Below, piece by piece: positions 1 to 31,778 of a stretch of 34,111 nt of DNA; the first letter of the stretch is position 1, and the number at the start of each line of letters is the position of its first letter. Made by a program: the position numbers and the translations under genes. Source of the stretch: Candidatus Diapherotrites archaeon (lineage in GTDB: Archaea; Iainarchaeota; Iainarchaeia; Iainarchaeales; 1-14-0-10-31-34); assembly GCA_040755695.1 (NCBI GenBank), contig JBFMAK010000004.1, forward strand, positions 1 to 34,111, given 5' to 3'. The notes beneath the pieces are model-generated. The model searched no databases, was not told the DNA's origin, and was given only the letters and a program-made list of their open reading frames with translations.

Positions 1-111
1 GACAAAAGAAAGTTCGGTCAAATAAGACAAAAGATAAATGTGAGGAGAATAACAGCAGCACTCACAAGAGCAATACTACACAACTTCTCAATGAAACACC
101 TTTACAGCTGA
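1..111 (+). CDS. C-terminal end of an unidentified protein (partial)
   Basis: An open frame enters from the left edge and runs 36 codons to a TGA at 109-111. The visible tail is basic (RKFGQIRQKINVRR, then a helix-like stretch ending in MKHLYS). It is too short to assign to a family. The tail is followed by about 75 bases with no clear gene before the next start. It could be the end of a DNA-binding or transposase-like protein, but this is only a guess from the charge. Confidence 0.35.
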   Translation, partial: DKRKFGQIRQKINVRRITAALTRAILHNFSMKHLYS

Positions 112-187
112 TTTTTGTCCCAAAGCCCCTGCATTCAATAAGAAATAAATACTGCCTTGAACTAATTCTTTTAAAGTGGTTTAATAT

Positions 188-1210
188 ATGGCAAAAAAAC
201 CCGCAACTGAACTAAGACATGTAGGCATTGGAAGGCTGCCTAGAACAAAAGCTGTTCCAAGCAGGGGAATGGCTGAATTGGGAATGGAATATTGGAAGAC
301 TCCTCTCACAGTAAAGATAAGGCGTTGGCCTAAGACACTTGAACCAGAAAAATTCGAGAAAAGAAAGTCTGAAACTTTAGGAATCAAAAGAGCAGTAACT
401 AGAGAAATGCATATTCAAGGAAAAATAGAAAAAGAATTAATGAGAAACAGGCAAATAATCAAGAAACTGTTGTTAGATCGAAGAATAACTTCCCCTAAAT
501 TATACAGCAACAAAGAAATTCGAATAAAGGCCGCAAATGTCTTGGAAAAACAAATAAAAAGCATTGGAAAAATTGACGATAAATATAATAAAAAAATGGC
601 TGAGGCAAGAGACTCAATAAAAAAAGCAATTGAAGCATTAAACAAAAACATGGTTGGAACAGCAAGAGACTACATTAAAAAAGCAGTAATTGGTTTAAAG
701 GAGAGAAATATCAACTTAATTGATATGACGAGAATAGAGAGAGAAAGGGAGTTCCTGCTAAGAGCAAAAGACTTAGAGAATGCAAGAAATGCAAACAGCC
801 AAGCATTAAATCTCATAAAATATAATGTCATAAATCAACTGCAAGAAAAAACTGTAATCCCAGAATCTCTGAGGAAAGAATACACAAAAAAAATCAGAGA
901 AGCCATCACAAAAATAAGACCTCAATTAAGAAAGGAATGGATTGAAGAAATGAGCAGGATAGGAGAAAAAGAGTTCAGAGAAGAACAATTGCTTAGGCAT
1001 GAAAAAGCAACAAGAATTTACAGGCATAGAACAAGAGGATTCTACTACCCTGAATACATCCAAATAAGAAAAAACATGTGGTACATACTTCAAGCAGTAA
1101 ACAGGGGAGACATTAAAGCAGTTTTCAAATACTATGCTGAAGTACAGAAAAGATTGAATGCAATAAACGAAGAAATTAAAAATAGATTAGCATTGCCTAA
1201 AAATGCATGA
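188..1210 (+). CDS. Basic helical protein of unknown function
   Basis: A 340-residue protein with no family that I recognise. After an N-terminal stretch rich in G, P, R and K (about residues 1-60) it is almost wholly charged and helical, with long K/R/E runs that suggest coiled coils or a nucleic-acid-binding bundle. There is no signal peptide or membrane segment. ATG at 188 is the first start and has no clear Shine-Dalgarno sequence. It lies 15 bp before a gene with a PD-(D/E)XK nuclease core on the same strand, so the two probably form a unit and this one may be a partner or DNA-binding subunit; that is inference from position. A viral or mobile-element origin is possible but unsupported. 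Confidence 0.7.
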   Translation: MAKKPATELRHVGIGRLPRTKAVPSRGMAELGMEYWKTPLTVKIRRWPKTLEPEKFEKRKSETLGIKRAVTREMHIQGKIEKELMRNRQIIKKLLLDRRITSPKLYSNKEIRIKAANVLEKQIKSIGKIDDKYNKKMAEARDSIKKAIEALNKNMVGTARDYIKKAVIGLKERNINLIDMTRIEREREFLLRAKDLENARNANSQALNLIKYNVINQLQEKTVIPESLRKEYTKKIREAITKIRPQLRKEWIEEMSRIGEKEFREEQLLRHEKATRIYRHRTRGFYYPEYIQIRKNMWYILQAVNRGDIKAVFKYYAEVQKRLNAINEEIKNRLALPKNA

Positions 1211-1225
1211 AAAGAAATGATTTGA

Positions 1226-2935
1226 ATGCCGTCGTTGATTCAAAGGGGAATTGCAAGAGAGGCTGGAGGCAAGCTTAAAATAACTGATTCTGCACTCAAA
1301 GAAAGATTCTGGCGCATTGCAAGGCTTCAGAGCAAAAGAAGAGCAAAAGAAAAAGCAAAGCATATTTCTTGGGGCAAGCAACTCCTCTTTCCATTGCTTG
1401 ACATTGCCCTCAATAGAATCAACTCAGGAAAAAAATTTGACGCAAAAGAAATGTTCATTGAATACAGAAGCAAAGGCGGCAGAGCAGGAATACACCAATT
1501 CATTCATGCAATCGATTTATTCAAAAACGCCAAAACAAAAGAAGAATTGTTTCATTTAATGGAAAGGCACAGGACTTTCAGTGATGCAGCCAAAGACTAT
1601 TGGGAAAGACTTCCAAAAGAATTAAAGATGTCAAGGTCAGGGCAGTTAGCGCAGGCGAGAATTGAATGGTGGGAGAACCTCTCCTTAGAAGAAAAAGAGG
1701 GATTAAAGAGAAAAATACTGGAAAGGCAAAACCTTTCATTTAATAGAATTGCCCTAGAAACAAGAGAAAAGATAAGGAAAGCAGTTGAGTTAGACAATAA
1801 AATCAAATTCATTGAAAACGCAAATTTTGCAGGAAAATTAAAGCATTATCCTGGCATTCCAGAATTAATGCGTTCAAGCTGGGAGGCAGCATATGCCAAA
1901 ATGCTGATGAAGGCAGGAAGAACCTATATTTACGAGCCAATAGGCTTTCCGATGATTGACCCACGCAATGGAGCTATAATTGCGTATCACCCGGATTTCA
2001 TTGAATTCAAGCCATTAAAAGAAAAGGGTTTTAGTGCAAGATTCACTGAAGTAAAAGGCTTCCTGACAGATTACGGACTAAAAAAAATTGAATTATTCAA
2101 AAAGTATTATGTTGATAATGACCTGAGTGGCTTGAATGAAGAGCAAAAAAGAAGGATGAGGCATTATATTAAAAGTCAAAGAAACCTTTTGTTTTCATAT
2201 TACAGGATTCCAGTAAACCAGAAAATAAATTTTTCTGTTGTGGGAGAAAAGGCGTGGAACCCAAAAACAATGGAATTCAATAACAGGAAAGGATTAATTG
2301 AAAGAATAATAAATAGGTTTCCCGAGCTAAAAAAAGAAGTTTCCTTGATTCCCTCAAACACGCAGCTGGAAAAAGAGTCAAAGAAGGCCTCGAACGGGAA
2401 AATTAAGCTGAAAAAAGTTGAAGAATCAAAGGGAAGAACAAGGATTGGCAGAAAACAAACAAGAATATTCCAAGCGGGTGTAGCAAATCTCGTAGATAAA
2501 TGCACCAATTCACTTATAACTATGTTGAATTCAGTGCGCTGGACAAAAAAAATAGAACCCCGTCAAATTGAATTGTGGGTGATGGCCCTAATAAAATTTT
2601 ATGATTTGATGAGCAAGAAAGAAAAAAGATTCTATTTAAATCGTTTAAGAGAAGAAGCAGCAATAGCTGATACGCCGGCAGTTGTTTTGACTGGGTTAAG
2701 CCTTACAAAAGGGTTATGTAATCTATTTGAACAAGAAATAAGACACAGAGAAGAACCTTACATAAAAGAGGTAACAAAGCAATTAGAAATAATAAAAAAT
2801 AATTGCGATAAAATTAACTCTGATATTAAAAACACTGTTAGCAACGAAACCTATGTAATCCAATATAGGATTGCACAAGGCATATCAAAGATGTATGAAG
2901 AAAGCTTAAAAGAAAAAGAAGAGGAAATAAAATGA
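1226..2935 (+). CDS. Large protein with a PD-(D/E)XK nuclease core
   Basis: The 569-residue protein has a recognisable nuclease core around residues 215-295. It shows MRSSWEAAYAKML (E220), YEPIGF, YHPDF (D257) and FTEVKGF (E275, K277), then a KKIELFKKYY helix. This order (RSSWE, then PDF, then E-x-K-G) is typical of PD-(D/E)XK nucleases in phages and intron-encoded endonucleases. The flanks are not recognised: residues 1-210 are basic and helical, and residues 370-569 are helical with charged ends. Cutting DNA at specific or branched sites is the family-level expectation; the substrate is unknown. The gene follows the basic helical protein by 15 bp and overlaps the downstream glycosyltransferase start by 4 bp (ATGA), so co-transcription is likely although functions differ. 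All metal-binding residues expected of the fold are present. Confidence 0.72.
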   Translation: MPSLIQRGIAREAGGKLKITDSALKERFWRIARLQSKRRAKEKAKHISWGKQLLFPLLDIALNRINSGKKFDAKEMFIEYRSKGGRAGIHQFIHAIDLFKNAKTKEELFHLMERHRTFSDAAKDYWERLPKELKMSRSGQLAQARIEWWENLSLEEKEGLKRKILERQNLSFNRIALETREKIRKAVELDNKIKFIENANFAGKLKHYPGIPELMRSSWEAAYAKMLMKAGRTYIYEPIGFPMIDPRNGAIIAYHPDFIEFKPLKEKGFSARFTEVKGFLTDYGLKKIELFKKYYVDNDLSGLNEEQKRRMRHYIKSQRNLLFSYYRIPVNQKINFSVVGEKAWNPKTMEFNNRKGLIERIINRFPELKKEVSLIPSNTQLEKESKKASNGKIKLKKVEESKGRTRIGRKQTRIFQAGVANLVDKCTNSLITMLNSVRWTKKIEPRQIELWVMALIKFYDLMSKKEKRFYLNRLREEAAIADTPAVVLTGLSLTKGLCNLFEQEIRHREEPYIKEVTKQLEIIKNNCDKINSDIKNTVSNETYVIQYRIAQGISKMYEESLKEKEEEIK

Positions 2936-3903
2936 TTTCTTTTTCTGTCATAATTCCTGCATTCAATGCAGAGAAAACAATTGCAAGAACATTGGATTCT
3001 GTTCTGGCGCAGAAGGGAAAGGATTTTGAGGTTATTGTAGTAGATGATGCAAGCACTGATGGAACCAGAAGGATTCTTGAGGGATACAAAAAGAAAATTA
3101 AGATAGTTCGCAATGAAAGGAATAAGGGCAGGAGCTATACAAGGAATTCGGGGGCAAGAAAAGCAAGAGGGAAAACAATAGTATTCCTTGATAGCGATGT
3201 TACTGCGGAAAAGGGATGGCTCAAGAAACTGGTTGAGCCTTTTGAAGAAGAAAAAGAATTATTTGCAGTGAGCGGAGAGGTTTGCGGAACAAGTGACGGA
3301 AGCATTTCATCTGATTTCTTCTGCTTTGCGATTGGGGCATCAAAATTTCAAGGATATAATGTGGCGTTCGACAGGAAGAAGTTTCTTGAAATGAAAGGCT
3401 TTAATGAGAAACTAAGAAATTTCGAGGACCCTGAATTAACATGGAGGGCATTCAATAAAGGCCTTAAATTAAAGAAGGTTGAAGCAAAAGCATTCCATCA
3501 AGCGTATCATTTCACTGAAAGAATAAAATCAAACTTCTATTACGTTTTCTATGATGCAGCAGTAATAAAAAAATACTTTTATTCAGTAATTGAAAATTTA
3601 AGCAGTTTTGTTTTTAATGCGCCAAACAATCTGAGGCAGACAGTGGGCTTTTATGTGCTCTTCATTGCCTCACTGCTTCTTGCAGTTCTTTCGCTAATTG
3701 CCACGGAAAACATTTTTTCCCTGCTATTTTTTTTCCTGCCAAGCCTTTTCGGCGAGGTAAGAATTATTTCCTTGAGAAAAAGAGTTCAATACAAGAACAA
3801 TTTTGCTTTGATTATGTTTTACGCTTTCTTTGCGTTGCTGGCTTTCTCTTTGGTGAAAGGCTTTGTTTTCCTTTACGCTTTGATTTACTCGCCTAAAATT
3901 TGA
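2932..3903 (+). CDS. Family 2 glycosyltransferase with C-terminal membrane segments
   Basis: A 323-residue GT-A fold enzyme. The N-terminus reads SVIIPAFNAEKTIARTLDSV, followed by VIVVDDASTDGT (nucleotide-sugar site) and FLDSDV (the DXD-type metal motif). A later NFEDPELTWRA supplies the ED acceptor-side motif. From about residue 235 to the end there are three hydrophobic segments, so it is probably anchored at the inner face of the membrane. It should transfer a sugar from an NDP or dolichyl-phosphate donor to a lipid-linked or glycan acceptor; the sugar cannot be told. Its start overlaps the preceding stop by 4 bp. Its 3' end overlaps the convergent YjbQ-like gene by 19 bp. Confidence 0.88.
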   Translation: MISFSVIIPAFNAEKTIARTLDSVLAQKGKDFEVIVVDDASTDGTRRILEGYKKKIKIVRNERNKGRSYTRNSGARKARGKTIVFLDSDVTAEKGWLKKLVEPFEEEKELFAVSGEVCGTSDGSISSDFFCFAIGASKFQGYNVAFDRKKFLEMKGFNEKLRNFEDPELTWRAFNKGLKLKKVEAKAFHQAYHFTERIKSNFYYVFYDAAVIKKYFYSVIENLSSFVFNAPNNLRQTVGFYVLFIASLLLAVLSLIATENIFSLLFFFLPSLFGEVRIISLRKRVQYKNNFALIMFYAFFALLAFSLVKGFVFLYALIYSPKI

Positions 3904-22347: not shown

Positions 22348-24204
22348 TTAAGGCTGCATTCTTGCCAGATCAGCTGACCTGATAAGGTATGCATTGACCT
22401 GTTCATTTCTATAAACCAGTTTACCTATCCCCCCAATCCTTGCCATGTCATCGCATCTTATAAGCAAATAATCAAAATAGATTTCTTTTGGTTTGCCATA
22501 AGAGCAGGGGACAATATAATCTGAGGCGGGATTTACTTTAATTATGTTCTCGCTTTCATTTACTACAATCAAGTTTTGCCCCAAAAATTTCTCGTTAGAA
22601 AGATACTGCCCTAACTCAACAGATGATTCACCATAATAATTGTTTGCATAATAGCTTATCCCTGTATAACCTACAAGCATAAATAAAATTAAGAAAATTA
22701 ACAGAAAGCTTCTCTTGAACAAAGCAATCAAACACACACTAAAACTCAAGGTAAGCATTTCAAGTGTTGCATGAACACCTTCCTGGAACCTTATGACAAG
22801 CAAGCCGCCTGCAAGCATAATTACGGCCAGACTGTAAATTAATACATTCTTATAATTAGATTTCTCTAAAAAGAAAAACAACAATAAAATGACCAAAACA
22901 AATAAATAATAAACCAGCCTGTGATAGAATTGCCTGAAACCAAAAACAGCTATATAAGAAGAAATGAAATCTCTGATCCTGCTTGAAGGAATTATGTAAA
23001 TCAAAGGGGCACTAAAATTCCTTAAGCTTTCCTCTGAAATAACTGCAACCTCCTGTTTTTTAGGCGGCTCAATCACTATTGCCTTTGCTCGAACGATCTG
23101 TTCCCCTGAAACAGGCTCTGCAGTAATTGTTCCCTCCGCCATCACAGGCTGCTCCTGCTGGAATCCAGGAATCCTTTCAGAAGAAACCTCCAGAAGATTA
23201 ATTGAGGTAAGATAAGTAAAAACAAGCAATACAAACAAGCCCAAGGTAACCAAGTCAATCAAATACATCTTCTTCTTTATTACCCCAAAAAAGAAATAAA
23301 ACCAGACAAAAAAACCGAACAAAATCAGGGAAAGATATAAAGTAGTGAGATTAATGTATACAAGCAATACCATAAGCAAAATTAAAAGTATCCTGGAAGA
23401 ATTGCTCTTTAAATATTTCAAGTAAATGTAAAGGAAAACCATAAGCAAACCATATTTTCCAATCATTTGAGGGGCAAAATGCAAGTTCATCAAAGGGAAA
23501 AAAGCAATTAAAGCAGCAAGCAACCCTGTTCTCCTATCAGATAAAAGAGATGCAATCAAATAAATTCCAATAAAAATCAATAGAACGAAAAGCAGCTTCA
23601 AAGCAAAAAATACTTCAATAACAGAAGTGCCAAGAAGCTTTGCAATTATCGCCAAATAATAAAAGTAAACAAAACTTACATTCACATAATTCCCTGCCCC
23701 AAAATCTGAAGGTTTATATAATCCTGTCTCAAGAGCTCCCAAGTTCTGCAGATGGCCTCTTTCGTCGCCAATGGGAATCCTAAGCGTTAGAGGGATAGCA
23801 GAAGCAGCGATTACCGCAAGCAAAGCCAACCAGAAAACAGTATATTTCTCTTTTATTACTGCATTAACAGCTGAACCAAAAAATATGCCGAAGCCAATAT
23901 AATAAGGCAAGGTCAAGTTAACACCCAAAGAAAAGTCCTGATTCCAGAAAGAGTGAAACAAGAGAAAAGAAGAAAGACCAATAAAAGGAAAATAATATTT
24001 TGATTTTGATTGAACAAAAAAAACGATTAAGGCAACAGCAAAAGCAAACAAACCCAAGAGCACTTTCTGCATTACCCCGCCGAAAAAAAGCAGGTCAAGG
24101 AACTGCATGACAATTGCAGCAAAAAACAATGGCAGCAAATACTTTGATGCAATCCTCCTGCCAATTGACTCCCTTAAATTATAAATCCTTGATTTTAATG
24201 ACAT
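22348..24204 (-). CDS. Polytopic GT-C-like membrane glycosyltransferase
   Basis: 618 residues from ATG at 24204 (a TTG one codon earlier is in frame), with at least ten hydrophobic segments. After the third or fourth comes a loop with LRIPIGDERGHLQNLG, whose Asp-Glu pair matches the catalytic first loop of GT-C enzymes such as ArnT and PMT. A long hydrophilic loop around residues 345-400 and a soluble C-terminal domain (about 535 to the end, with KVNPASDYIVPC) lie outside the membrane. GT-C enzymes use dolichyl-phosphate sugars on the outer face, which suits the polyprenyl-sugar synthase at 5577-6716. The upstream gene's last 26 bp overlap its start. GT-C assignment is probable, not certain. 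Confidence 0.72.
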   Translation of the reverse strand: MSLKSRIYNLRESIGRRIASKYLLPLFFAAIVMQFLDLLFFGGVMQKVLLGLFAFAVALIVFFVQSKSKYYFPFIGLSSFLLFHSFWNQDFSLGVNLTLPYYIGFGIFFGSAVNAVIKEKYTVFWLALLAVIAASAIPLTLRIPIGDERGHLQNLGALETGLYKPSDFGAGNYVNVSFVYFYYLAIIAKLLGTSVIEVFFALKLLFVLLIFIGIYLIASLLSDRRTGLLAALIAFFPLMNLHFAPQMIGKYGLLMVFLYIYLKYLKSNSSRILLILLMVLLVYINLTTLYLSLILFGFFVWFYFFFGVIKKKMYLIDLVTLGLFVLLVFTYLTSINLLEVSSERIPGFQQEQPVMAEGTITAEPVSGEQIVRAKAIVIEPPKKQEVAVISEESLRNFSAPLIYIIPSSRIRDFISSYIAVFGFRQFYHRLVYYLFVLVILLLFFFLEKSNYKNVLIYSLAVIMLAGGLLVIRFQEGVHATLEMLTLSFSVCLIALFKRSFLLIFLILFMLVGYTGISYYANNYYGESSVELGQYLSNEKFLGQNLIVVNESENIIKVNPASDYIVPCSYGKPKEIYFDYLLIRCDDMARIGGIGKLVYRNEQVNAYLIRSADLARMQP

Positions 24205-24613
24205 CAAACTCCACCAGCGCTAACGCTATAATAATTATAATAATGGCAAAACCGAGGTACGGGCTGTAATCAGTTCTGACCACAAAAGAAGTGAAATAAA
24301 AGTCGTTCTTGTCTGCATCCAGCACAACCTTCACCAAATAATTCCCTGGCCTGGCATTAATTAAAGTGATTTTATGTTCTTCTCCGGATTGAACGCTCAA
24401 CGATTGGTTATCAAAGAAAGGGCAGGTGGAAGGCTTGCATTCAACCAATTCCTTCAAATTATAGTAAGCGTAAATGGAAATCTTCTGGTAAGGCTCATCT
24501 GCATGCATGACCAGTTTACCGTTAGGCACTGAAACAAAAGGCTCAATGCTCACTTCAGCGCTCACAAAACAAATAAATAAAACAAGAAACAACAAGACAA
24601 AAAATTTTTTCAT
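24179..24613 (-). CDS. Exported single-domain protein with C-terminal membrane anchor
   Basis: 144 residues. A signal peptide (MKKFFVLLFLVLFICFVSAEV, cleavage near SA-E) is followed by about 95 residues predicted beta-rich, with one Cys pair (VECKPSTCPF), and by a C-terminal membrane segment (GFAIIIIIIALALVEF). The start ATG at 24613 overlaps the TGA of the upstream gene (ATGA) and gives the only sensible signal peptide. It lies between a DUF1616-like gene and the GT-C-like gene, so it may be an accessory subunit of the membrane enzyme. I do not recognise its family. Confidence 0.75.
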   Translation of the reverse strand: MKKFFVLLFLVLFICFVSAEVSIEPFVSVPNGKLVMHADEPYQKISIYAYYNLKELVECKPSTCPFFDNQSLSVQSGEEHKITLINARPGNYLVKVVLDADKNDFYFTSFVVRTDYSPYLGFAIIIIIIALALVEFDVIKIKDL

Positions 24614-25545: not shown

Positions 25546-26085
25546 ATGCAATACCAAGACGAACTAGAACAATCACTGCAGCTGGAAACAAGAAAAAAAT
25601 TGTATGAAGCAATAGAAGAAAACCCAGGCCTGCATTTCAGAGAGCTTCAGAGAAGGGTGAACCTTGCCACAGGCAGCCTTCAATACCATCTTGAATTCCT
25701 CCAGAAAAAACATTTAGTGAGAATAGAAAAGCAAGGAAAATTCAACAGATACTACACTGTAAGGGGAAGGCAGTTCGGAGAAGACAGCAAACTCATGTCC
25801 ATCCTCAGGCAGGAAAGCATGAGAAAAATAATTGTTTTTTTGCTCCAGAAAAAAGGTGCAAACAACTCAAAAATAGCAGAAAACATAAGCCTCTCGCCCT
25901 CAACAACCTCATCCCACCTAAAAAAACTGATTGAACTGAATTTAATCCAAAAGAAAAAGAAAGGAAAAGAGAAAGTATACTACATCACAGAACCAGACAA
26001 GATAGCCTTAATGCTTGTTGAGTACAAGAAAAGCTTCCTGGACGAAATGGTGGAAGGGTTTGCAGACATCTGGCAGCAACTATAA
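25546..26085 (+). CDS. Two-domain winged-helix transcription regulator
   Basis: 179 residues with two winged-helix domains. The first (about 15-75) has LYEAIEENPGLHFRELQRRVNLATGSLQYHLEFLQKKHLV, the second (about 85-150) has RKIIVFLLQKKGANNSKIAENISLSPSTTSSHLKKLIELNLI; each carries a clear recognition helix. ArsR/MarR-like domains of this order act as archaeal repressors or activators. The start ATG follows AGGTG with 5 nt spacing. It likely forms an operon with the membrane protein and may control its own promoter and the divergent glycan operon through the ATTGTACCAA repeats; this is inference. Confidence 0.83.
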   Translation: MQYQDELEQSLQLETRKKLYEAIEENPGLHFRELQRRVNLATGSLQYHLEFLQKKHLVRIEKQGKFNRYYTVRGRQFGEDSKLMSILRQESMRKIIVFLLQKKGANNSKIAENISLSPSTTSSHLKKLIELNLIQKKKKGKEKVYYITEPDKIALMLVEYKKSFLDEMVEGFADIWQQL

Positions 26086-26418: not shown

Positions 26419-27678
26419 ATGGAGAACCGAATTGATATTCATAATTACAGGAAACGCTTGAATTGCGCTCTTTCTTGGATTAAGTCAAAAGCAAAGCTTA
26501 CCCCTGCTAACAGGACGCTTTTATTGAAGTGGTATGAGTGTTTGGTTAATGACGGATTGACTGTGCCTAGAATGGAGAAGCTTGTTTCTCAGGTTTGCAG
26601 GATCGGGGAATGGCTTGAAAAAGACTTTGAGAAGGCAGGACAGAATGACATTGAAAGGATCGTTTCAATCATTCAGTCTAACCAAAAGTATGCTGACTGG
26701 ACCAAGCACGACTACAAGGTTACCGTAAAAAAGTTTTGGAAGTGGTTAAACGGAAACAAGGAGCTGCCTGAAATAGTTAAATGGGTTTCCACTAGAATGG
26801 GAGTAAAGAACAGGATGATTCCAGAAGAACTGCTTACAGAAGAAGAGGTATTAAAATTGATTGACTGCTGTGATCATCCTCGCGACAAAGCCTTGACTGC
26901 TTTACTTTACGAGACTGGAGCCAGAATAGGGGAAATAGGTTCTATTAGATTGAAGCATTTGACTTTTAATGGCTGTGAAGGCCAGGTTGTCTTGAACGGC
27001 AAGACTGGAATGAGGAAAGTATTCATTGTTACCAGCGTTCCTTTCCTGAAGAAATGGATTGAACTGCATCCCAGAAGGAAAGACAAGGAAGCCCCGTTAT
27101 TTGTTCGAATTACTTCAGGCAAAGGCCAGGCAATGACCTATGCAGGAATAAAAAAGATTTTAGGCAATGCAATGAAAAAGTCTGGAGTAAACAAAAAGTA
27201 TAATCCTCACTTGTTCAGGCATTCGAGAGCCACTTATTTGGCTGGATACTTGACTGAAAGCCAATTAAATTATGTTATGGGATGGATTCAAGGAAGCGAG
27301 ATGGCTGCAACCTATGTTCACTTGAACGGAAAAGAAGTGAATGATGCTCTAAGGAGAATGTATGGCTTAGGAGAAGAAAAAAAGCTAGAGGAAAGCAAGT
27401 TTATTTCAAGGAAATGCCCTATATGCAATACAATGAATGAACCCAAAGCAGAATTATGCTGTAACTGCAGTAATCCTTTAACTTACAAGGCTGCAATAAA
27501 AAAGTTCCAGAAAACAGAAGATGAAAGGTTTGAAGAAATACTCAAAGAATTGTTCTGGGAGAAATTCAGAAACCAATTCAAAAACACTGTCTCACCAGAA
27601 GAAGCAAAACAACTAATAGAAGAAGCAGAAGAAAAAGCCCGTAGGACAAGAGAAAGTGAAAGCATTGCTGGAACGTAG
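26419..27678 (+). CDS. Tyrosine recombinase/integrase with C-terminal zinc ribbon
   Basis: 419 residues. A SAM-like core-binding domain (about 10-130) is followed by the catalytic domain with R169 (ETGARIGEI), K195 (NGKTG), H264 and R267 (HLFRHSR), W289 in the H/W position, and the nucleophile Y299 (ATYVHL). A zinc ribbon follows (C333, C336, C347, C350), then a charged helical tail of 65 residues. This order is known in archaeal integrases. All catalytic residues are present, so it should be active. The ATG lies in the 7-nt loop of a 6-bp inverted repeat (26410-26428), with GGGAGGGG just upstream. It surely drives integration of the element at tRNA-Asn. Confidence 0.93.
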   Translation: MENRIDIHNYRKRLNCALSWIKSKAKLTPANRTLLLKWYECLVNDGLTVPRMEKLVSQVCRIGEWLEKDFEKAGQNDIERIVSIIQSNQKYADWTKHDYKVTVKKFWKWLNGNKELPEIVKWVSTRMGVKNRMIPEELLTEEEVLKLIDCCDHPRDKALTALLYETGARIGEIGSIRLKHLTFNGCEGQVVLNGKTGMRKVFIVTSVPFLKKWIELHPRRKDKEAPLFVRITSGKGQAMTYAGIKKILGNAMKKSGVNKKYNPHLFRHSRATYLAGYLTESQLNYVMGWIQGSEMAATYVHLNGKEVNDALRRMYGLGEEKKLEESKFISRKCPICNTMNEPKAELCCNCSNPLTYKAAIKKFQKTEDERFEEILKELFWEKFRNQFKNTVSPEEAKQLIEEAEEKARRTRESESIAGT

Positions 27679-30331: not shown

Positions 30332-30916
30332 TTGATTTTCAATAATAAATTATTAATAATGGGATTCATTTTTATTCTGTTTTTTGGATTAGGTCATGCT
30401 GTTTATTCTTTGGTTGACAATGGTTCTTTTGAAGAAGGATGTAAACCCAATAGTGAATTTAATAATTGTTTAATTGAAAATTCTGATCCTATTGATTGGT
30501 CTTATTCTAGTACTATTGATGGTTGTAGGTTTTATGTAGCAAGTGATACTAAAGGCTACATTTCATCTACAAAGTGCAATGGATTTCACACTCATGGAAC
30601 TTATTGCTGGACATCTCTTCCGTATTGGAATGCCCCCGCATCATGTGAGTACTGGAGTGATTACTTTAAACTAGAAGAGGGGGGAATATTACTTTTCGAC
30701 CTTAATGTGCAGGCCATGACTGATTGTAATCAATGCATTGGTCACATAGGGCTCAGTATAGGAACAATTGCTAACCAAGACATGAATACTTATTATTGCC
30801 AAAATTACGAACAAGTTTTCTATAATGAAAAAATAATTGTTGTTTTTTGGAGCAACATTAATTCTATTATTGGTTATGGGGTGCACTCAGCAAACAGGAC
30901 AAGTTGTATTAACTAA
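30332..30916 (+). CDS. Secreted Cys-rich protein, possibly carbohydrate-binding
   Basis: 194 residues. From TTG at 30332 a typical signal peptide is read (KLLIMGFIFILFFGLGHA, cleavage near HA-V); GGGGG lies 6 nt upstream. The mature part starts YSLVDNGSFEEGCK, like the first strand of CBM/DUF642-type jelly rolls (NGSFE-G with a later DWSY), and has about 11 cysteines. A role in binding glycans is a weak inference. The last 80 bp overlap the following lipoprotein gene in another frame, and its C-terminal residues (WSNINSIIGYGVHS) are not beta-like, so the end may be an artefact of truncation. Confidence 0.55.
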   Translation: MIFNNKLLIMGFIFILFFGLGHAVYSLVDNGSFEEGCKPNSEFNNCLIENSDPIDWSYSSTIDGCRFYVASDTKGYISSTKCNGFHTHGTYCWTSLPYWNAPASCEYWSDYFKLEEGGILLFDLNVQAMTDCNQCIGHIGLSIGTIANQDMNTYYCQNYEQVFYNEKIIVVFWSNINSIIGYGVHSANRTSCIN

Positions 30917-31778
30917 CTCTAATAAACAAATGCATGTTTGTTCAACCGGGGATGTTGTCTCTAATCCTGCCCTTTGCCCTACTGTGACGGCTCAGCAAAC
31001 TGAAGAACCAAAAGTAGGTAATGATGGTGCATTAACTGAAACGCCTCAAAGCGAATTCAAAGTTTCCGAAGTTTTAGACGGCGATTCTATTGTTTTGGAA
31101 AATGGTAGCGAAGTGCGACTAATTGGCATCAATGCCTCTGAAGCTGGCCAGCAATGTTACAGTGAGGCAAAAAGCAAATTGGAAGAGCTTGTGAAAGGAA
31201 AAACTGTTCGCTTGGAAAAAGACATTTCAAATAAAGACCAGTATGAACGCCAATTAAGGTATGTTTATGTCGGCAACGTTTTTGTAAACAAGGAGATGGT
31301 GCGACTTGGTTATGCAACTGCTTACGAATATCCACCAGATACTAAATACTCACCACAGATAGCCCAAGCAGAGAAAGAAGCAAAGCAAAACAAGGGCTGC
31401 CTGTGGCAAACCTCTGAAGCAAATTACATTAAGGACAAGTGTATTCAAATCATGAATTTTCATTTCAATGCTTCAGGTAATGATAACTATAATTTGAATG
31501 ATGAATATGTTTCCTTCAAAAATGCTTGTGCCTATCCTATTGAAATGAGTGGCTGGTCAATAAAAGATGAAGCAACTAATACATACACCTTCCCTTCTTT
31601 CATCCTTAAGCCAAATTCCATATTTACTTTATACACTGGTTCTGGAACGAATACCGAAACACAACTGTTTTGGAGGAGAAGCGGTTATGCTGTCTGGAAC
31701 AATACGGGAGACACTATGTATGTGAGGAATTCAAGTGGGGGTTTAGTGCTAAATTATAGCTATGCAGGATACGATTAA
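30837..31778 (+). CDS. Lipoprotein nuclease: SNase domain plus lamin-tail domain
   Basis: 313 residues. The signal MLFFGATLILLLVMGC has a lipobox with C16. The staphylococcal-nuclease (SNase) domain (about 73-192) has VLDGDSIVL (D81, D83), R94, E102 and R138 (QYERQLRY), matching D19/D21, R35, E43 and R87 of the S. aureus enzyme. D40 is Asn (N99) and T41 is Ala (A100). A lamin-tail domain (about 205-313) follows: YVSFKNACAYPIEMSGWSIKDE and TGSGTNTETQLFWRRSGYAVW. It should cut nucleic acids outside the cell, perhaps to scavenge nucleotides. The start is TTG at 30837, within the end of the previous gene. Confidence 0.87.
   Translation: MLFFGATLILLLVMGCTQQTGQVVLTNSNKQMHVCSTGDVVSNPALCPTVTAQQTEEPKVGNDGALTETPQSEFKVSEVLDGDSIVLENGSEVRLIGINASEAGQQCYSEAKSKLEELVKGKTVRLEKDISNKDQYERQLRYVYVGNVFVNKEMVRLGYATAYEYPPDTKYSPQIAQAEKEAKQNKGCLWQTSEANYIKDKCIQIMNFHFNASGNDNYNLNDEYVSFKNACAYPIEMSGWSIKDEATNTYTFPSFILKPNSIFTLYTGSGTNTETQLFWRRSGYAVWNNTGDTMYVRNSSGGLVLNYSYAGYD

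Follow-up and report, generated by a model that had tools for sequence, protein, structure and literature searches.

The first two genes of this contig raise the question of what kind of module they form and how they came to lie between the end of an insertion sequence and a glycosyltransferase gene. A sequence-only reading of the DNA had described them as a pair, a basic helical protein followed by a protein with a small phage-type nuclease core, and had proposed defence, homing or a viral origin for them. The stretch studied, called the window here, covers positions 1 to 34,111 of contig C4 (154,759 bases), in a genome of 1.30 Mb in 42 contigs, rated 99.85% complete. The explanation that we prefer, and to which we give about an even chance of being right, is that the second protein, P2, is a DNA endonuclease of the homing type encoded by a free-standing gene, with the strongly basic first protein, P1, as a possible companion.

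Two intact reading frames at the start of the contig

The 340- and 569-residue proteins were both confirmed as open-reading frames (Table 1), each intact, with a spacing of 15 bp between them. When the stretch was resampled 300 times with a first-order Markov model, the maximal stop-free run was 254 codons and the median 112, so the lengths of the P1 and P2 frames are not a chance result here, and the codon usage of both is like that of the adjoining genes. P1 is very basic, as claimed earlier, with 82 lysine and arginine residues to 43 aspartate and glutamate residues, and P2 is likewise very basic at 115 to 73, while the helical character of P1 is suggested by the look of its sequence.

Table 1 Features of the P1–P2 locus, in window coordinates
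Feature	Position	Strand	Basis
Insertion-sequence tail: last 36 transposase codons and stop (1-111), element end (about 108-127)	1..127	+	Identity to C3
Leader between insertion-sequence end and P1, 60 bp, opening with CCTGCATTCAAT at 128-139	128..187	+	
P1, basic 340-aa protein, proposed DNA-binding companion	188..1210	+	ORF listing, composition
P2, 569 aa, with predicted T7-endonuclease-I-type PD-(D/E)XK core	1226..2935	+	ORF listing, sequence and model comparisons
P2 N-terminal part, residues 1-135	1226..1630	+	No credible match; modelled
Helical motif 'EWWENLSLEEK', P2 residues 140-168	1643..1729	+	Common to RfcS-intein endonucleases
P2 nuclease core, residues 207-305	1844..2140	+	Invariant columns, phrog_9019 match
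P2 C-terminal part, residues 335-569 (about 235), predicted helical	2228..2932	+	No credible match; modelled
Glycosyltransferase family 2 (GT2) gene	2932..3903	+	Pfam E 1.1e-39

The nuclease core of P2

The RSSWE, PDF and EVKG motifs noted earlier in P2 are real and the numbering of D257 and K277 was exact, the motifs reading R216-S-S-W-E220, P256-D257-F258 and E275-V-K277-G278, with the codons for E220, D257, E275 and K277 at 1883, 1994, 2048 and 2054. The catalytic order E, D, E-x-K is therefore present within the core, and we take this order to be that of the E, D, E, K active site of T7 endonuclease I. PHROG 9019, named Holliday junction resolvase, matched P2 residues 211-329 at E 7.6e-9. 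Comparison of P2 with 28 nuclease ORFs gave 33.5-57.4 bits, and since the best score among 1000 block shuffles of P2 was 32.0, the core motifs are beyond chance. A tblastn search with the core returned 47 phage records at E ≤ 10 (best E 2e-4); matches below E 0.01 in Bacillus and Geobacillus phages and haloviruses had identities of about 29-35%. A four-sequence core alignment used as query found 17 loci in IMG/VR and 8 in GTDB contigs, and 19 of these 25 loci were aligned with P2 to give a core alignment of 20 sequences. P2 is about 21-31% identical to these relatives over the aligned parts, and ten columns, including E220, D257, E275 and K277, are invariant, the catalytic residues being kept in 20 of 20. 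On its motifs and alignment, the core is thus predicted to be of the T7-endonuclease-I-type of PD-(D/E)XK nuclease and has the expected catalytic residues.

The curated models were less inclusive. P2 had no match to Pfam Phage_endo_I (PF05367) at E ≤ 1 and is therefore not placed in that family, which several core relatives matched weakly and one (L046) above the cut-off. P2 also had no Pfam match at E ≤ 1 to NUMOD3 or to Intein_splicing, the latter reached at E 5e-15 or better by four intein ORFs, and no match worth keeping in NCBIfam or in PADLOC, the library of which dates from 2023. PHROG 9019 was matched in 16 of 389 archaeal genomes (own included), and among these 16 ORFs only L008 is close to P2; the others, several of them helicase-like or short nucleases with other motifs, were set aside.

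A model of P2 from the single sequence was discarded (mean pLDDT 38.9), and one built with alignment A3 had a mean pLDDT of 66.6, with the core blocks at 72-93 and residues 1-135 mostly at 68-92. A fold search of this model against a viral library gave 9 matches at E ≤ 0.001, including Endonuclease I and Holliday junction resolvase. The same search against the PDB gave none at E ≤ 0.001; TnsA, at the top of the list, had E 0.15, and T7 endonuclease I, ranked 28th, had E 1.8. The TnsA alignment covered 107 residues with a Z of 7.0 and an rmsd of 3.8 Å (second entry, Z 6.9 and 3.5 Å). Two mitoribosomal chains that aligned to this part of P2 reached Z 8.0 and 7.6, a level also seen with unrelated chains. 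The model is supportive, and not decisive, of a PD-(D/E)XK fold for the core. Rows resembling 14-3-3 proteins for P2 residues 337-551 were rejected as long-helix matches below the tool's stated noise level.

The closest relatives of the core are nested in inteins

The top match of P2, scoring 57.4 bits, was L067 from Halapricum sp. CBA1109 (E 1e-13 for the two sequences compared alone), in which the nuclease sits inside the ORF of the replication factor C small subunit (RfcS). L066, L069 and L071 are alike in this respect, and L065 is a bacterial DnaE ORF with an intein-nested endonuclease. In L065, L067, L069 and L071, Pfam recognised domains of the host protein and an intein splicing domain that encloses the nuclease. 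The RfcS-intein matches start at P2 residue 140-141, ahead of the core, and the 140-168 region compared with L067 without the core gave E 1.6e-5. NUMOD3, a module of homing enzymes, is carried by L008 and by halovirus HCTV-5 gp38. A review (PMC3943268) counts PD-(D/E)xK among the homing endonuclease families, of which there are at least six, and states that homing endonuclease genes may be free-standing, and for RfcS of the Halobacteria two intein alleles, rfc-a and rfc-d, are given in a survey (PMC4071816).

Two further observations concern these ORFs and their like. The L067 ORF additionally contains a LAGLIDADG domain, apparently as part of a second intein. In the order to which the source genome belongs, three ORFs of about 243-269 aa (L015, L017 and L021, in genomes G015, G061 and G004) share a mutually similar N-terminal helical part. 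At their C-terminal ends they carry a related nuclease-like core in which IEC or IEA takes the place of E-V-K, and they form another free-standing nuclease group.

Because the best-scoring relatives of P2 are endonuclease domains nested in inteins, homing is directly supported and is the best supported of the roles proposed earlier. P2 is read as a free-standing homing-type endonuclease on the strength of this intein-nested kin, the start of the match ahead of the core, the NUMOD3-bearing relatives, the invariant catalytic residues, the standing of PD-(D/E)xK as a homing family, the sporadic occurrence of the gene, and the insertion-sequence tail and rearranged neighbours beside it. Under this reading, residues of about 207-305 would fold as a T7-endonuclease-I-like PD-(D/E)XK domain, which would cut DNA with a divalent metal by way of E220, D257, E275 and K277. 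The extensions on both sides of the core, and possibly the very basic P1, would keep the enzyme bound to a long target. When a DNA copy without the module is broken and then mended with the module-bearing copy as template, the gene or the gene pair would spread. DNA cleavage, site specificity, homing and the cooperation of P1 with P2 are what we infer from these comparisons, P1 being possibly tied to P2 through the adjacency of the two genes. Together the two genes probably make up a mobile module for cutting DNA, familiar in its general kind but carrying extra parts that are not. Against this reading stand the low identity of P2 to its relatives, its missing NUMOD3 and Phage_endo_I matches, the resolvase annotation of many virus relatives, the absence of a PDB fold match at E ≤ 0.001, the failure to find an empty site or a second copy, and the large share of the pair, most of P2 and all of P1, that no relative explains.

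The same relatives bear on a second explanation, in which the pair is the remnant of a virus or plasmid, P2 being a junction-resolving or DNA-processing endonuclease that would cut branched DNA in replication or packaging and P1 another protein of the element. The earlier suggestion of a viral origin draws on the core, which is shared with tailed viruses and whose PHROG bears the resolvase name, an annotation carried, rather than that of homing enzyme, by many of its virus relatives; the resolvase and Endonuclease I hits of the viral fold search point the same way. It does not extend to the rest of the pair, since phage records gave no match to P1, and IMG/VR gave no relative of P1 or of P2 taken whole. 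The virus relatives are, moreover, mostly short (about 140-310 aa) and none has the flanks of P2, no other virus gene adjoins the pair, and intein domains outscore virus proteins against P2, which leaves a virus or plasmid remnant rather unlikely.

Flanking parts, P1 and their distribution

The core is small compared with the parts around it, as had been noted, and neither the N-terminal nor the C-terminal part of P2, nor any of P1, had a credible match among the 28 nuclease relatives. Searches of 389 archaeal genomes (own included), of phage records and of IMG/VR yielded nothing credibly related to P1. Full-length relatives of P2 were absent from IMG/VR and GTDB contigs and from 75 genomes of its order (own included), at the sensitivities of the tools used, and P2 is likewise sporadic among the 389 archaeal genomes, reaching a credible score in one, its own. 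These comparisons place the core in a kind already known and make the flanks of P2 and the partner P1 new to the collections searched.

Several weaker matches were rejected. Those of P2 in 7 other archaeal genomes (E 0.006-0.07) were not accepted as relatives; L034, L036, L037, L038 and L040 were, judged from their sequences, coiled-coil-like, repeat-like, ligase-like or unrelated proteins, and L035 and L039 contain internal stops. Four other genomes gave P1 matches at E ≤ 0.01 (best 3.9e-6); these were attributed to composition and appear to lie in the helical stretch of a kinase-like protein and in unrelated or broken ORFs. P1 and the C-terminal part of P2 also had matches in PHROG, in Pfam (E 0.02-0.9) and in NCBIfam (E 0.001 and 0.06), which were rejected because they were partial, far under the cut-offs or in low-complexity helices; PDB sequence matches to Spindly, Apolipoprotein A-I and Sir2 were rejected on like grounds.

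A rearranged joint beside an insertion sequence

Contig C4 begins inside an insertion sequence. Bases 1-127 are identical to C3:1-127 and the two diverge from 128, a pattern like that left where an assembly breaks within a repeat. The peptide of the transposase tail recurs in 3 other genomes of the 73 searched (own included). L075 has a 326-aa relative of the transposase with a match, under the cut-off, to a model of IS5 transposases (E 1.8e-4), and also an element end similar to that at 108-127. The tail, element end included, stops 60 bp upstream of P1. Scans for promoters and terminators returned fewer sites than in shuffles. A possible related element end at G000:C4:58184-58203, with 3 mismatches to window 108-127, is the only, and weak, candidate for the other end. 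A near-match of window 120-145, which spans the element end, to C2:98117-98141 (25 nt, 92%, E 0.005) was taken as chance; the gene at C2:98117 reads like an RNA polymerase subunit.

On the other side, P2 overlaps the GT2 gene by 4 nt, the GT2 start codon, in ATGA, supplying the P2 stop. Homologues of GT2 stand after a GT4 in G001 and G002, and others, in G001 and G003, stand after an unrelated 497-aa ORF with the same ATGA overlap. The overlap thus belongs to the GT2 start codon, as it is kept in these paralogues with an unrelated upstream ORF, and since it is GT2 that supplies it, it is weak evidence for an operon with P2. No empty site and no second copy of the pair were found, the neighbourhood in related genomes being rearranged. 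The pair lies at a rearranged joint beside an insertion sequence, and its surroundings are mobile or shuffled. The link to the glycan locus, pointed out earlier, is loose, the pair standing at this joint next to the insertion-sequence tail.

Elsewhere in the window, a 419-aa tyrosine recombinase is encoded at 26419-27678 (Phage_integrase, E 8.8e-20), with archaeal XerA_Arch as its best NCBIfam match (E 3e-30, under the cut-off) and a C-terminal stretch that is weakly zinc-ribbon-like. A protein with an HVO_0163-type HTH domain is found at 25546-26085, and on this and the XerA match we take the source to be an archaeon with a small genome. One ORF at 30837-31778 joins a Staphylococcal-nuclease-like domain to a lamin tail domain, and a 619-aa ORF at 22348-24207 has a weak DUF4131 match only (E 0.0049, under the cut-off).

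The setting bears on two explanations that give the pair a role in the cell. In one, P1 and P2 are a lineage-specific cellular pair, an old nuclease domain put to a housekeeping use such as DNA repair, resident in the genome and co-transcribed with the glycosyltransferase. Intact frames, native-like codon usage and the 4-nt overlap with a resident gene would fit such a pair; however, the overlap is accounted for by the start codon of GT2, as in the paralogues of G001 and G003, and the pair is absent from all related genomes examined. Neither gene was in fact present in any other genome examined, the opposite of what core, always-present genes would give, and we regard a resident cellular pair as improbable. 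The other explanation is a two-gene defence or toxin-antitoxin-like module, in which P1 would sense or bind and P2 would degrade invading or own DNA. It draws on the adjacent gene pair, the nuclease core, the sporadic occurrence and the insertion sequence next door, yet PADLOC gave no match for P2 and, for P1, an AbiTi match at chance level (E 0.88), the pair does not recur among the other genomes of the 389 searched, and no defence gene was recognised nearby, the flanking genes checked being glycosyltransferases, UPF0047 and ABC-type. A role in defence, also proposed earlier, is accordingly quite improbable.

The 12-nt sequence CCTGCATTCAAT occurs in the window at 128-139 and 2956-2967 only, one copy directly after the end of the insertion sequence and the other past P2 inside the GT2 gene, where it encodes a PAFN stretch. 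At least 12 nt in common with the first 100 nt of GT2 were found in 3 of 2000 other 60-nt windows, and with the whole gene in 89 of 2000, statistics computed after the repeat had been seen; since it was noticed after the fact, its weight is small. The repeat may be a scar of the arrival of the pair at this site, or chance. The copies of CCTGCATTCAAT on either side, which look as though the target of the pair flanked it twice, suggest one further reading: P1 and P2 would make up a homing module of a new, two-protein kind directed at the conserved 5′ end of glycosyltransferase genes, with P1 as a dedicated DNA-binding partner. This reading is very improbable.

Comparison with known systems

Taken as a homing-type endonuclease, P2 can be compared with several known enzymes. 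Bacteriophage T7 endonuclease I (PF05367; PDB 1fzr, 1m0d) appears to have the same type of PD-(D/E)XK core, with a Foldseek identity of 24-26% but E-values of 1.8 and 2.1. TnsA of Tn7 (PDB 1t0f, 1f1z) may resemble the P2 core in its PD-(D/E)XK fold, a general similarity near the noise level of the tool and one not accompanied by a sequence match in PDB searches. The tailed-virus endonucleases of PHROG 9019, including Bacillus phage Eoghan gp73 and that of Geobacillus phage GBK1, have RSxWE, PDF and EVKG as in P2, but the Eoghan and GBK1 proteins are about 160 aa long, with no P2-like flanks and no P1. Halovirus HCTV-5 gp38 and the archaeal chromosomal ORF L008 (241 and 286 aa) are free-standing, like P2, and combine a P2-type core with a modular DNA-binding part ahead of it, although that part carries NUMOD3, which was not detected in P2.

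The best-scoring relatives, the haloarchaeal RfcS inteins (L066, L067, L069 and L071) and the DnaE intein L065, have the same catalytic residues as P2, and the RfcS inteins also share the helical motif before the core. In contrast to these intein-nested domains, P2 is free-standing, is without a splicing-domain match and has long flanks that they lack. With P2, a group represented here chiefly by small virus proteins and by domains nested in inteins would gain a free-standing endonuclease from an archaeon, and within this group its own large flanks and its possible partner protein are distinctive. If P1 is needed for the choice of target, the pair would be a two-protein form of homing enzyme, and if it is not, P2 would be one more lineage-specific selfish nuclease gene.
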